Origin: Neptuniibacter caesariensis
GTDB lineage: Bacteria > Pseudomonadota > Gammaproteobacteria > Pseudomonadales > Balneatricaceae
Reading direction: 5' to 3'
Assembly: GCF_000153345.1 (NCBI RefSeq)
Contig: NZ_CH724126.1
Span: 216,774 to 280,773 of the forward strand
Length of the DNA: 64,000 bases
Shown here: one piece after another, positions 31,048 to 34,885 of the stretch
Position numbering within the stretch: position 1 is the first letter of the stretch
Layout: each line of letters starts with the position of its first letter
Position numbers and translations under genes: made by a program
The notes under the pieces: generated by a model
Told to the model about the DNA's origin: nothing
Database searches by the model: none
The model's input: only the letters and a program-made list of their open reading frames with translations

Positions 31048-32076
31048 TTAAGCGGCCAGTTCGTTTCGCACAATCTCTGCCCCTGCACGTAGTGCATTGA
31101 GCTTGCCTCTGGCAACATCACGGGAAAGTGGTGCCATGCCGCAATTGGTGCATGGGTAAAGTTTGTCTGCATCAACATACTTCAGCGCACCACGCAGTGT
31201 TTCAGCGACCTCTTCGGGTGTCTCGATGGTCTCAGCGGTGACATCAATCGCGCCGACCATCACTTTTTTGCCGCGAATTAGCTCTAGAACTTCCAGCGGT
31301 ACGCGGCCGTTATGACACTCTAAGGAGATGATATCGATATTAGATTTTTGCAGCGATGGGAATGTCTCTTCGTATTGTCGCCATTCCGAGCCAAGGGTCT
31401 TTTTCCAATCGGTATTGGCTTTGATGCCGTAGCCATAGCAAATATGCACAGCGGTTTCGCATTTAAGCCCTTCGATGGCTCTCTCTAAACAGGCGATACC
31501 CCACTCATTGACCTCTTCAAAAAAGACGTTAAAGGCGGGCTCATCAAACTGGATAATATCCATGCCCGCCGCTTCAAGCTCTTTGGCCTCTTCGTTGAGC
31601 GCTATAGCAAATTCCCAGGCCAGATCTTTTCGGCTTTTGTAGTGATCATCGTAAAGGGTATCGACCATGGTCATCGGCCCTGGCAGTGCCCATTTAATCG
31701 GTTGATCCGTCTGTTGGCGTAAGAATTTAGCATCTTCAACAAACACGGCTTTTTTTCGACTAACGGGACCCACCACGGTCGGTACGTTGGCATCGTAACG
31801 GTTACGGATTCTAACCGTTTTGCATTTTTCAAAATCCACACCGCTGAGGTTTTCAATAAATGTGGTTACAAAGTGCTGACGGGTTTGTTCGCCGTCACTG
31901 ACGATATCAATCCCGGCGTTGCCTTGCTCCTGGAGTGTTACGAGCAGAGCATCTTGTTTGCCTGAGGTTAGTTCGGCACCTTCCAATTTCCAGGGTGACC
32001 AAAGTTTCTCAGGTTCTGCTAGCCAGGACGGTTTAGGCAAGCTGCCGGCTGTGGAAGTAGGTAATAACTTTTTCAT
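31048..32076 (-). CDS. mesD: Core methionine synthase, MesD type (MetE C-terminal-domain-like)
   Basis: 342 residues, under half of a normal MetE (about 750), corresponding to the catalytic barrel only. The zinc and homocysteine ligands of MetE have counterparts: His211 and Cys213 in AVHICYGYG, Glu253 in SLECHNG, and Cys309 or Cys312 in YPCTNCGMAPL. The folate-binding N-terminal half is missing. Directly upstream, 30 bases away, is a DUF1852 (MesX) gene. That pairing defines the MesD family of aerobic bacteria, shown by genetics to make methionine without methyl-folate or cobalamin but needing DUF1852 and oxygen. The methyl donor is not settled to my knowledge. The nearby MetR fits this role. 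Confidence 0.88.
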   Translation of the reverse strand: MKKLLPTSTAGSLPKPSWLAEPEKLWSPWKLEGAELTSGKQDALLVTLQEQGNAGIDIVSDGEQTRQHFVTTFIENLSGVDFEKCKTVRIRNRYDANVPTVVGPVSRKKAVFVEDAKFLRQQTDQPIKWALPGPMTMVDTLYDDHYKSRKDLAWEFAIALNEEAKELEAAGMDIIQFDEPAFNVFFEEVNEWGIACLERAIEGLKCETAVHICYGYGIKANTDWKKTLGSEWRQYEETFPSLQKSNIDIISLECHNGRVPLEVLELIRGKKVMVGAIDVTAETIETPEEVAETLRGALKYVDADKLYPCTNCGMAPLSRDVARGKLNALRAGAEIVRNELAA

Positions 32077-32106
32077 AACGTCTTCTGTTTCTATACTGGC
32101 TTAAGA

Positions 32107-33081
32107 TTAGGCGTAGCTGGATGACCACTTTTTGAGTAGTTCGCCGTAGGGCTTAATGAAATGCTCTTCTGCCCATTTGCCCTGCTCTACCGCTAAACGG
32201 CTGCGCTCTTCCCGGTCGTATACAACCTGTGTCAAAGAGTAATCTTGGTGTCTAAGGCTCGGTTTGAAGACCTCGCCTGCAAACGCATTGGCGTTATAAA
32301 TTTCAGGACGATAGATCTTTTGGAAGGTTTCCATCGTGCTTAGCGTACTGATGAGCTCAAGATTGGTGTAATCATTCAGTAGGTCGCCATAAAAGTAGAA
32401 GGCATAAGGCGCAACACTGTTTGGCGGCATAAAGTAACGCACCTCCATACCCATCTTTTTAAAGTACTGTTCGGTCAGCGAAGGCTCATTGGGTTCGTAT
32501 TCAGTGCCTAAAACCGGATGAGTGTTCGCAGTACGATAATAGGTTTTGTTATCCGAAACGCTTAGGCAGATAACAGGTAGTTTATTGAAGTTTTGTTGGT
32601 AAGCGTCCGAACTCACAAAATCCTTAAACATATTACCGTGCAGTTCACCGTAGTTTTCCGGTACGCTGAATTGATCTTTACCTTTGTTATGGTTCAGGAG
32701 CAGAACACTGAAATCATAATCACGAACGTAGGAAGAGAAGTTGTTGCCGACGATACCTTCAATACGTTGGTTGGTTTTGTGATCGACAATATATGTTTTC
32801 AGAATCTCAATGGTGGGAAAGTTATCCCCAGTGCCTTCCACATCGATATCAACATGCACGATTTCCAGCTCAACCGAGTAGCGATCATTATTTGGGTTAT
32901 CCCAGGTTGCCAAGGTGTTAAAGCTGTTATCGATCATCTTAATAGCTTTTCTGAGGTTTTCCCGGCGCTGTTCGCCACGTGCCAGGTTGGCAAAGTTAGT
33001 GGTAAGACGGGTATTGTTTGATGGCTCATAGTTTTCATCGAAACGAATACGCTTAACTGTGTATGCAAATCCTTTACTCAT
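32107..33081 (-). CDS. mesX: DUF1852 protein, MesX (partner of MesD)
   Basis: 324 residues, soluble, no signal peptide or membrane segment. It opens with FAYTVKRIRFDENY and TRLTTNFANLARG, which I recognise as the DUF1852 family. The middle has GDNFPTIEILKTYIVDHKT and the C-terminal part is rich in Tyr and charged residues. Its biochemical function is unknown. In Acinetobacter and related aerobes it is required for MesD to work, perhaps by producing or delivering a methyl group in an oxygen-dependent reaction. It lies in one operon with mesD, which follows after 30 bases. Confidence 0.88.
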   Translation of the reverse strand: MSKGFAYTVKRIRFDENYEPSNNTRLTTNFANLARGEQRRENLRKAIKMIDNSFNTLATWDNPNNDRYSVELEIVHVDIDVEGTGDNFPTIEILKTYIVDHKTNQRIEGIVGNNFSSYVRDYDFSVLLLNHNKGKDQFSVPENYGELHGNMFKDFVSSDAYQQNFNKLPVICLSVSDNKTYYRTANTHPVLGTEYEPNEPSLTEQYFKKMGMEVRYFMPPNSVAPYAFYFYGDLLNDYTNLELISTLSTMETFQKIYRPEIYNANAFAGEVFKPSLRHQDYSLTQVVYDREERSRLAVEQGKWAEEHFIKPYGELLKKWSSSYA

Positions 33082-33435
33082 GAGACCGATATCCTAAAAA
33101 GTCAGAGTGTTAATTACCGAGTTAACGTTTTAAGACTGTGCTGAGATCGACCATTGGGTTCAGCTCTCATTGCTTCCTATCTATAACGTTAAGCATTGCA
33201 TGCAGTTATACGCCGCTATTCATATGAAAAAAAATGATACCTTTTCATTGTTCAATTATATTTATTCATGGGTGTGGGGTTATTCAGGAAAGAGATGCCA
33301 AAAAGAGCTGAACAGGCTGCAGTGGAAGTGAGATTATCGGTGCTGATTTAGCCGTGAATTTGATACTGCAGGAAAGCCAGCAGGGATTACGCTGTTTGCT
33401 TGCTGGTACCGTAGATGACTTCGATGCGTGAAAGA
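33082..33435. promoter_or_regulatory. metR-mesX intergenic region
   Basis: 354 bases with no credible gene. It should hold the mesX-mesD promoter. It contains the palindrome TTCATATGAA at 33219-33228, and several TGAA or TTCA half-sites of the kind MetR binds lie between 33219 and 33290. I could not find a full TGAA-N5-TTCA site or firm promoter boxes. No known riboswitch fold is recognisable by eye. Confidence 0.4.
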
Positions 33436-33453
33436 TTAGGAAAAATCTTTCAC
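33428..33453. repeat. Inverted repeat overlapping the metR stop codon
   Basis: Perfect 10-bp arms (33428-33437 with 33444-33453) around six bases. Each outer end is a TGAA or TTCA. It covers the last codons of metR. On the minus strand no T run follows, so it may be a structure at the message end or a protein-binding site rather than a standard terminator. Confidence 0.5.
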
Positions 33454-34344
33454 TTTAGGCTGCTGGTAAGTGCGTGCCATCTCCATAAAGGCGTTGAGAT
33501 ATTCGATATCGGTGTCACCATTACGGGTGCCTAAGAAGATCTGTTTGTTGATACCCTTCTCTCCCAGGCGTACCACAGCTAAAGGTAGTTTTGCGCAGTA
33601 CTCTTCTGACAGCCAGCGGGGTAATGCCGCTACACCACGCCCGCAGGCCACCATTTGCAGTAATATCTCGGTTGTTTCAAAGACTTTATGTGATTTGGGC
33701 ACAACCCCACCCGGGTTGAGAAACTGAGCGTAAATATCCAGGCGGCTTGTTTCTACCGGGTAGGTCAGCAATACCTGGTCGCGGAGGTCTTCAGGCCGGA
33801 TAAATTCACACGAGGCTAAGGGGTGGCTCTTCGCCACGACCAGAACCTGTTCATAATCAAAAACTGGCTGGAAGGTTAAACCGCTTTTATAAAATGGGTC
33901 GGGCGTGACTAGCAGGTCAATCTCATAATCAAGCATCGCCCCTACGCCACCAAACTTGAATTTCTGTTTCACGTCGACATCGACATCGGGCCAGGCCTCT
34001 AAAAAAGGTGCGACGATGTTCAGTAACCATTGATAGCAAGGGTGGCACTCCATACCGACCCGTAAGGTTCCTCGCTCACCTTTTGAGATCTGTTTCAGCT
34101 TGCCTTCTGCATGATCAAGCAAGGGTAAAACGCGGTTCGCAATATTCAGAAGATACCGTCCAGCTTCGGTTAGTCGTAAGCTTCGACCTTCACGGAGCCA
34201 TATTTCGGTTCCAAGATTATCTTCGAGTTTACGGATGGTATGACTCAGTGCAGATTGTGTGACGCAAAGTTCTTTGGCTGCGGCAGTGAGCGATCCGTAT
34301 TCTTCTACGGCATGAACAACTCTGAGATGAATACGTTCAATCAT
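33436..34344 (-). CDS. metR: LysR-type regulator MetR
   Basis: 302 residues from the ATG at 34344, which gives the MIERIHLR start seen in MetR; an upstream in-frame TTG is less likely. The N-terminal winged helix has GSLTAAAKELCVTQSALSHT. The effector domain carries stretches I recognise from E. coli MetR: MECHPCYQWL, SGLTFQPVFDYE, LTYPVETSRLD and QMVACGRGVAALP. MetR senses homocysteine and activates methionine synthase genes. Here it lies upstream of mesX-mesD on the same strand, so these are its likely targets. It also supports the methionine role of that pair. Confidence 0.88.
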   Translation of the reverse strand: MIERIHLRVVHAVEEYGSLTAAAKELCVTQSALSHTIRKLEDNLGTEIWLREGRSLRLTEAGRYLLNIANRVLPLLDHAEGKLKQISKGERGTLRVGMECHPCYQWLLNIVAPFLEAWPDVDVDVKQKFKFGGVGAMLDYEIDLLVTPDPFYKSGLTFQPVFDYEQVLVVAKSHPLASCEFIRPEDLRDQVLLTYPVETSRLDIYAQFLNPGGVVPKSHKVFETTEILLQMVACGRGVAALPRWLSEEYCAKLPLAVVRLGEKGINKQIFLGTRNGDTDIEYLNAFMEMARTYQQPKVKDFS

Positions 34345-34528
34345 AAGATTCTTGAGCAAGACTAGGTGATTCGTGAAGATATACCAACCGAACTTGATGT
34401 CACAAGGATATTTAGCTTTTCCCGCTTAATCTTATGATCTTATCCGTAAGGAATAGTTGGCCTGATGTAAGTACTTACTTCCGTTCTGGATAAGTCAGTA
34501 GGAGGTGTCAGCTTTCGCACTTGAGGTG

Positions 34529-34885
34529 CTATTCATAAATACAGAGTTTATTGCCATCCAGATCGCGAAAATAAGCAGAATATCGGCCTGATCTTACTTT
34601 GGGCTCTCCCTCGCTGACACCGCCCAGATCCAGTGCCCTCTTATGAATCTCATCCACCTCGCTTGCTGACTTGAGGTTGATTCCCAGCATTGTGCCATTA
34701 CCTACACTGGCTGGCTCACCATCGAAGGGTTCAGCAAGTGCAAACATAAACCCCTCGCCTACCCATAAGGTCATTCGTCCTTGGTCATGCACTTTATTCA
34801 ACCCCTGATCGATAAAGAGCTGATCGTAGAAGGTCACCGCTTTCTGCATATCATTGGTACCAAAAACAAAGTAATTCATCTTCAT
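34529..34885 (-). CDS. VOC (glyoxalase / bleomycin-resistance fold) family protein
   Basis: 118 residues, one vicinal oxygen chelate domain: MNYFVFGTNDMQKAVTFYDQ at the start, a central glycine-rich turn, and the end YSAYFRDLDGNKLCIYE, where the last Glu is the usual metal ligand. Members range from lyases and dioxygenases to drug-binding proteins, so the substrate cannot be told. It is the last of a loose minus-strand run with an acetyltransferase and a methyltransferase. Confidence 0.8.
   Translation of the reverse strand: MKMNYFVFGTNDMQKAVTFYDQLFIDQGLNKVHDQGRMTLWVGEGFMFALAEPFDGEPASVGNGTMLGINLKSASEVDEIHKRALDLGGVSEGEPKVRSGRYSAYFRDLDGNKLCIYE

Follow-up and report, generated by a model that had tools for sequence, protein, structure and literature searches.

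The MesX-MesD methionine synthase locus of Neptuniibacter caesariensis: a MetR-type box, TauE/SafE neighbours at related loci and a diverged MTHFR-like gene

Introduction

How does a methionine synthase that lacks a folate domain obtain the methyl group that it transfers to homocysteine? This question is raised by a pair of genes, mesX and mesD, in a 64,000-nucleotide stretch of the genome of Neptuniibacter caesariensis (contig NZ_CH724126.1, positions 216,774 to 280,773; we refer to this whole stretch as the window). MesD is a core methionine synthase that corresponds to the catalytic half of MetE, and MesX is a DUF1852 protein. Price, Deutschbauer and Arkin (2021, PMC7857596) reported that MesD needs MesX and oxygen and needs neither MetF nor vitamin B12. 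In that study, mesXD from Sphingomonas koreensis rescued metE and metF mutants of Escherichia coli, only in air and only when both genes were present, and the rescue worked on minimal glucose medium without cobalamin. These properties were established with the genes of another species. Price and colleagues also predicted that MesX uses a flavin and takes methyl groups from central metabolism, and they remarked that a flavin reductase is often encoded near mesXD and that the MesD family is found in aerobes only.

The locus in the window is an ordinary MesX-MesD methionine synthase, which is to say a system that has already been published. We further propose, with a probability of about 0.82, that an oxygen-using MesX supplies the methyl group to MesD and that the two genes are under MetR-type control.

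MesD and MesX

MesD consists solely of the Meth_synt_2 catalytic domain (PF01717; 128.1 bits in a profile search). It matches NCBIfam family NF006589 at 672.5 bits (cut-off 392) and, across residues 3-342, the PDB entry 3rpd ("Methionine synthase (B12-independent)") at 657.1 bits, and it is 83% identical to the copy from Acinetobacter baumannii (L054). According to PMC7857596, 3rpd is a MesD protein with bound selenomethionine; we found no difference between it and the MesD of the window at the level of sequence. MesD shares with the MetE of E. coli (b3829) the catalytic domain and seven functional residues, but unlike MetE, it has no N-terminal folate domain. The seven zinc or homocysteine residues, whose roles we take from PMC7857596, are S433, E484, D599, H641, C643, E665 and C726 of MetE, which correspond to S12, E63, D178, H211, C213, E253 and C312 of MesD. 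All seven are kept in 119 of the 119 aligned MesD proteins. (The alignment covers 119 of 121 loci and leaves out L034, where mesD is split, and L063, where mesD runs off the contig.) Because MesD lacks the folate half of MetE, the methyl group must come via MesX.

Residues 1-321 of MesX match positions 1-323 of the 323-position model PF08908 ("Putative oxygenase MesX") at 590.6 bits, versus a cut-off of 25. An initial annotation, made from the sequence alone, had identified the two genes as mesX and mesD; the scores for PF08908 and NF006589 bear this out, including the DUF1852 assignment of the product of 32107-33081, on which that annotation had staked its reading, and its coordinates and description are correct. 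Three residues of MesX (H188, E194 and C172) are invariant in an 81-row alignment and also in a 39-row alignment, while H148 is invariant in the 39-row alignment and conserved in at least 90% of the 81 rows.

The two genes lie on the minus strand, with 30 nt between the stop codon of mesX and the start of mesD, and form an operon (Table 1). The initial annotation had placed this operon behind a metR gene. The operon of mesX and mesD stands; the LysR-family gene lies upstream on the same strand and is set off by a 354-nt gap, which contains a MetR-type box. Among related loci, mesD directly follows mesX in 80 of 80: it is a single open reading frame (ORF) in 78, reaches the contig end in L063, and is in two frames in L034. 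In this last locus, from Bowmanella yangjiangensis (L034:6007-6982), the broken mesD stands next to an intact mesX, which reflects either a frameshift or a sequencing error. Another irregular copy is found in the genome G119 (C1:2175963-2176446), which, besides a full-length copy, has another MesX-like stretch that is fragmented and contains a stop codon.

Overall, the window resembles the system of Price and colleagues (PMC7857596) in having both proteins, the adjacency of mesX and mesD, the active-site residues, and a MetH in the same genome, and we found no difference in the two proteins themselves. Unlike that system, the locus has no adjacent flavin reductase gene. The available parts of that paper do not discuss a linked MetR-like LysR such as the one in the window.

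Table 1. Features of the mesXD locus and the MTHFR-like gene of N. caesariensis (positions are those of the window unless another contig or locus is given)
Feature	Position	Strand	Basis
mesD: 342-aa core methionine synthase with just the catalytic domain of MetE	31048..32076	-	NF006589, PF01717, PDB 3rpd
mesX: 324-aa DUF1852 protein ("putative oxygenase"), reported to be required by MesD	32107..33081	-	PF08908
Predicted MetR-type box ATGAAAAGGTATCAT, one mismatch versus ATGAA-N5-TTCAT, 167 nt upstream of the mesX start	33234..33248	-	Motif scan and position
LysR-family regulator, probable MetR paralogue; longer TTG start possible at 34359	33436..34344	-	PF00126, PF03466
MTHFR-like protein, 321 aa (outside the window)	L132:7201-8166 (= G000:C3:439200-440165)	-	PF02219, 27.4 bits; PDB 3ijd, 227 bits

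For the LysR gene, the internal ATG (34344) is a better start than the first TTG because the first residue of E. coli MetR falls on it in an alignment. Upstream of this gene (34529-34885, minus strand) is a small glyoxalase-fold protein, which scores just 21.2 bits (cut-off 171) and 19.9 bits (cut-off 255) with models of FosB/FosM.

Other methionine and vitamin B12 genes in the genome

The search for full-length metE and metH that the initial annotation had proposed gives no MetE and one MetH in this genome (3.92 Mb in 6 contigs; 98.14% complete). The folate domain of MetE (PF08267) has no match; of 14 control genomes, 10 were positive in the same search. The single match to PF01717 is the MesD of the window. 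Thus, mesXD is the only B12-independent methionine synthase that we found, beside the B12-dependent MetH. The genome also contains a CobJ/CbiH gene of the B12 pathway (291.1 bits, cut-off 246.35), and N. caesariensis probably makes B12. The label "B12-independent", as used in the initial annotation, is therefore apt for the enzyme pair, while the organism itself also has MetH and the CobJ/CbiH gene.

Counting the window's own genome together with 37 relatives, 11 of the 38 carry MesX, each alongside MetH; of 398 genomes sampled from the phylum, its own included, 44 carry MesX. One relative from the window's genus (G005) is identical to Neptuniibacter marinus ATR 1.1 (L082) across 3,963 nt. In two strains of Acinetobacter baumannii, expression of the DUF1852 gene was reported to fall with B12 by log2 8.33 and 8.07 (PMC12892962, 2026), and two rhizosphere strains seem to evade the toxicity of nitrous oxide by means of MesD homologues (PMC13059711, 2026).

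Regulation of mesXD

The neighbouring regulator had been called MetR in the initial annotation, and this name did not hold up. The protein has both LysR-family domains (PF00126 and PF03466), but its score for the NCBIfam model of MetR is 225.2 bits, below the cut-off of 382. When the genome was searched with MetR from E. coli, the best match was at C3:314062-314991 (293.5 bits, 45% identity); the window's LysR came second (213.2 bits, 41%) and the third match had 78.6 bits. We also built a FastTree phylogeny from the window's gene, 19 mes-linked LysRs, the genome's own MetR, E. coli MetR (these two being the only MetRs included) and two outgroups. The window's LysR and the 19 mes-linked LysRs formed one clade (support 0.986), apart from both MetRs. 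Because E. coli MetR has a better match elsewhere and because the mes-linked proteins form a separate clade, the simplest reading of the window's gene is as a MetR paralogue. The better match (L154) lies on a different contig from mesXD, and it adjoins an ORF that, by eye, resembles ornithine or aspartate carbamoyltransferase.

Leyn et al. (2014, PMC4239095) described PF08908-metE2 as a well-conserved target of MetR, with the motif ATGAA-N5-TTCAT. If one mismatch is allowed, then the window contains 2 matches to this motif versus 3.0 expected, so the box upstream of mesX is not beyond chance when taken alone. It is credible because of its position and because it recurs: a box with at most one mismatch is present within 250 nt in 93 of 121 upstream regions of mesX. 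Of these, 19 are exact and 74 have one mismatch, as compared to 0 and 2.6 in mononucleotide shuffles. (The 121 regions comprise 80 from the genome_contigs set, 11 from the window's own genome and its relatives, and 30 from the phylum sample; some loci are near-duplicates, such as L082 and L092, which are one genome, and five starts are not placed on a start codon.) In the window's genus, five of the seven MesX-bearing genomes have such a box (L090, L091, L092, L095 and L096), and the other two have a box with two mismatches (L094 and L097).

Among 55 ORFs of at least 200 aa in 89 kb, just mesX, metH and the MTHFR-like gene that we describe below had a box within 250 nt when up to one mismatch was allowed. 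(The 89 kb are the window, L131 and L132, the latter two being chosen for their methionine genes, and the count of ORFs includes spurious overlapping ones.) The window's own lysR gene has no such box within 250 nt. As for control by a riboswitch, there was no Rfam match at the gathering cut-offs in the window, L131 or L132.

These observations support the regulation of mesXD by a MetR-type protein via the predicted box. As in the MetR regulon of Leyn et al. (PMC4239095), a box of the ATGAA-N5-TTCAT type lies upstream of the PF08908-metE2 operon and metH carries one too; unlike in that regulon, the regulator adjacent to the operon is a paralogue that falls outside both MetRs of our tree. So the regulatory link that the initial annotation drew from the nearby gene is supported as MetR-type control, by the conserved box rather than by a neighbouring MetR, and it was already proposed in PMC4239095.

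Transporters and flavin reductases near mesXD

We surveyed the neighbours of mesXD in 80 loci (L004-L083), up to 5 kb on each side. Because the neighbours were clustered at 35% identity, the counts are lower bounds. After mesD, the most common partner was a TauE/SafE transporter (PF01925; 165.8 bits for the one in L006), in at least 45 of the 80 loci. LysRs of the MetR-like clade were found in at least 18 loci, and flavin reductases were either Fre-like (at least 8 loci) or of the PF01613 type (at least 4). Six loci (L007, L008, L009, L013, L022 and L075) have the complete cluster of fre / lysR-mesX-mesD-tauE.

The tauE gene was divergent and upstream in 25 loci, codirectional and downstream in 12, and convergent and downstream in 8; boxes were counted at up to one mismatch. 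For divergent tauE, the intergenic region that is shared with mesX contains a box in 23 of 25 loci. None of the 12 codirectional tauE genes has a box within 250 nt upstream, as expected if they are read through from mesX. Among the 8 convergent tauE genes, 6 have a box within 250 nt upstream (0.1 expected), but in four of these six (L020, L031, L039 and L071) a divergent LysR gene shares the region, and there the box may serve that gene rather than tauE.

The TauE/SafE proteins fall into two groups, of 26 and 18 loci, with some 35% identity between the groups, plus one odd member (L036). Because the groups are so distant, the linkage of TauE/SafE to mesXD probably arose more than once. The phylum sample is less biased. 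Of its 43 loci, 10 have TauE close to mesX and 2 have a flavin reductase there; five loci (L184, L186, L187, L197 and L202) that lost mesX in the ORF filter are counted as misses. Of 10 relatives, 3 have TauE near mesX, including G009 from the same genus, where it directly follows mesD.

The locus in the window has neither a TauE/SafE gene nor a flavin reductase gene beside mesXD. Since both are missing there, neither can be essential everywhere, and the rescue of E. coli by mesXD alone agrees with this (PMC7857596). We considered whether TauE might be an obligatory partner and rejected this, given its absence beside mesXD in the window and its presence in just 10 of 43 loci of the phylum sample. 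A TauE query has one match in the N. caesariensis genome, which adjoins an ORF that resembles lgt (by eye) and has no box at up to two mismatches. Among the titles listed by a literature search that combined TauE with methionine synthase and homocysteine, none was about MesX, and the term "TauE" is absent from the main text of PMC7857596 and of PMC4239095.

A diverged MTHFR-like gene, probably in place of MetF

The genome has no match to full-length MetF. Its sole match to PF02219 just passes the cut-off of 24 bits and covers positions 154-236 of the 287-position model; this is the MTHFR-like protein of Table 1. (MTHFR is short for methylenetetrahydrofolate reductase.) The protein is related to PDB entry 3ijd, which is described as an "uncharacterized protein". 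We take 3ijd to be a clostridial protein with bound methyl-tetrahydrofolate.

Across the 38 genomes, the MTHFR-like protein is present in 21, all of which have MetH and 20 of which lack a canonical MetF. The 33 genomes with MetH comprise 20 with the MTHFR-like protein only, 12 with canonical MetF only, one with both, and none with neither. Among the 5 genomes without MetH, none has the MTHFR-like protein, 3 have canonical MetF, and 2 have neither. (Canonical MetF was counted at E ≤ 1e-30, with G021 and G032 scoring just ~114 bits, and the MTHFR-like protein at E ≤ 1e-50.) Within the window's family, the exchange of the two is uneven (Fisher p = 0.007 across 25 genomes, ignoring kinship), and kinship explains part of the pattern. 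Against the replacement of MetF, the gene in G020 has one in-frame stop, and the gene in G013 is in two pieces.

A MetR-type box (at most one mismatch, within 200 nt upstream) is found at 16 of the 21 MTHFR-like loci, 14 of them at a distance of 41-54 nt, as compared to 0.4 expected; 11 of the 21 loci are from one genus, and the gene start in L148 is extrapolated. Judging from these patterns, the MTHFR-like protein is probably the working MTHFR of the window's family, one that would have gone unrecognised so far. It may be the same gene as the "metF-II" of Leyn et al. (PMC4239095). The MetF-like protein ACIAD1783, an uncertain point in the argument of Price and colleagues about MetF (PMC7857596), and PP_4638, which is likewise doubtful there, may be relatives of it. 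When we searched the literature for missing or alternative MetF, none of the titles was clearly about this protein.

Proposed mechanism and alternatives

We infer the following sequence of events. When homocysteine builds up (its role as the effector of MetR is taken from the literature), MetR or the adjacent MetR paralogue would switch on mesX-mesD via the box. MesX, most likely acting as an oxygen-using oxidase or oxygenase with reduced flavin from a flavin reductase of the host, would cleave a small, common metabolite and free a methyl unit, which would reach MesD bound to MesX itself or to a small carrier. MesD would hold homocysteine as a zinc thiolate, like the catalytic half of MetE does, and methylate it. 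The flavin-dependent oxygenase chemistry is the prediction of Price and colleagues (PMC7857596), and the flavin reductase genes near mesXD in 12 of the 80 loci speak for it, in line with their remark on such genes.

Several results weigh against this proposal. No known fold was found for MesX: its sequence has no match in PDB up to E = 1, and an AlphaFold2 model (pLDDT 85.1) has no significant structural match there. No flavin-binding family was found in MesX, and linkage to flavin reductases is a minority feature, seen in 12 of the 80 surveyed loci and in 2 of the 43 from the phylum sample, and not at the window's locus. The spacing between the box and mesX differs greatly from locus to locus (about 74 to 248 nt). 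Finally, since N. caesariensis has MetH and probably makes B12, mesXD may be a minor route to methionine.

The lack of a fold match would also suit a different kind of MesX, namely a metalloprotein that requires oxygen, or else a methyl carrier, loading MesD from a methylated compound such as a sulfonium or a methylated amine. We consider this unlikely, if worth taking seriously. We guess that His148, His188, Glu194 and Cys172, which are invariant or nearly so, could form a metal or thiol site, but the growth of E. coli with mesXD on minimal glucose demands a common donor (PMC7857596), and flavin reductases do recur near the locus. It is very improbable that the methyl group reaches MesD from methylcobalamin or a corrinoid protein, the route suspected for MesA-MesC, with MesX as an accessory. 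The CobJ/CbiH gene of the host would fit such a scheme, but the S. koreensis pair functions in E. coli without cobalamin in the medium, and the MesD family was found only in aerobes (PMC7857596). Furthermore, the recurrent neighbours that we annotated are a transporter, reductases and LysRs, with most of the rarer neighbours being outside the annotation.

As to the regulator, it is a real possibility, if short of an even bet, that the adjacent LysR has a target other than mesXD and that only the unlinked MetR binds the box. The better match to MetR does sit elsewhere in the genome, and the box is present at 93 of 121 loci while a LysR of the clade is linked in just 18 of 80. However, the fact that LysRs of a single clade adjoin mesXD in several arrangements in those 18 loci argues for a role of the adjacent gene. 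Returning to an oxygen-using MesX, we can extend the proposal to the transporter, although this is speculative and rather doubtful: MesX could be an oxygenase, of a fold that is new to PDB, whose reaction yields or uses up a small anion that TauE/SafE moves; sulfite, a sulfonate or a short carboxylate would be plausible. Different subfamilies of the transporter would have been recruited at least twice for this purpose, and the anion would be the missing clue to the methyl donor.

Implications

The initial annotation stated that the methyl donor and the chemistry of DUF1852 were unresolved, and this agrees with our search of the literature on DUF1852, PF08908 and MesD, which gave no solution; subscription journals were largely outside that search. 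Through MesXD, methionine is made aerobically, with a methyl donor that had not been identified by 2021; the locus in the window by itself adds little to this. The conserved set of His148, His188, Glu194 and Cys172 suggests which residues of MesX to mutate. The parts of our analysis that seem worth passing on are the linkage to TauE/SafE, which narrows the search for the reaction of MesX, and the MTHFR-like protein that apparently replaces MetF, which bears on the MetF argument of Price and colleagues (through ACIAD1783; PMC7857596) and on the description of this methionine synthase as "folate-independent".

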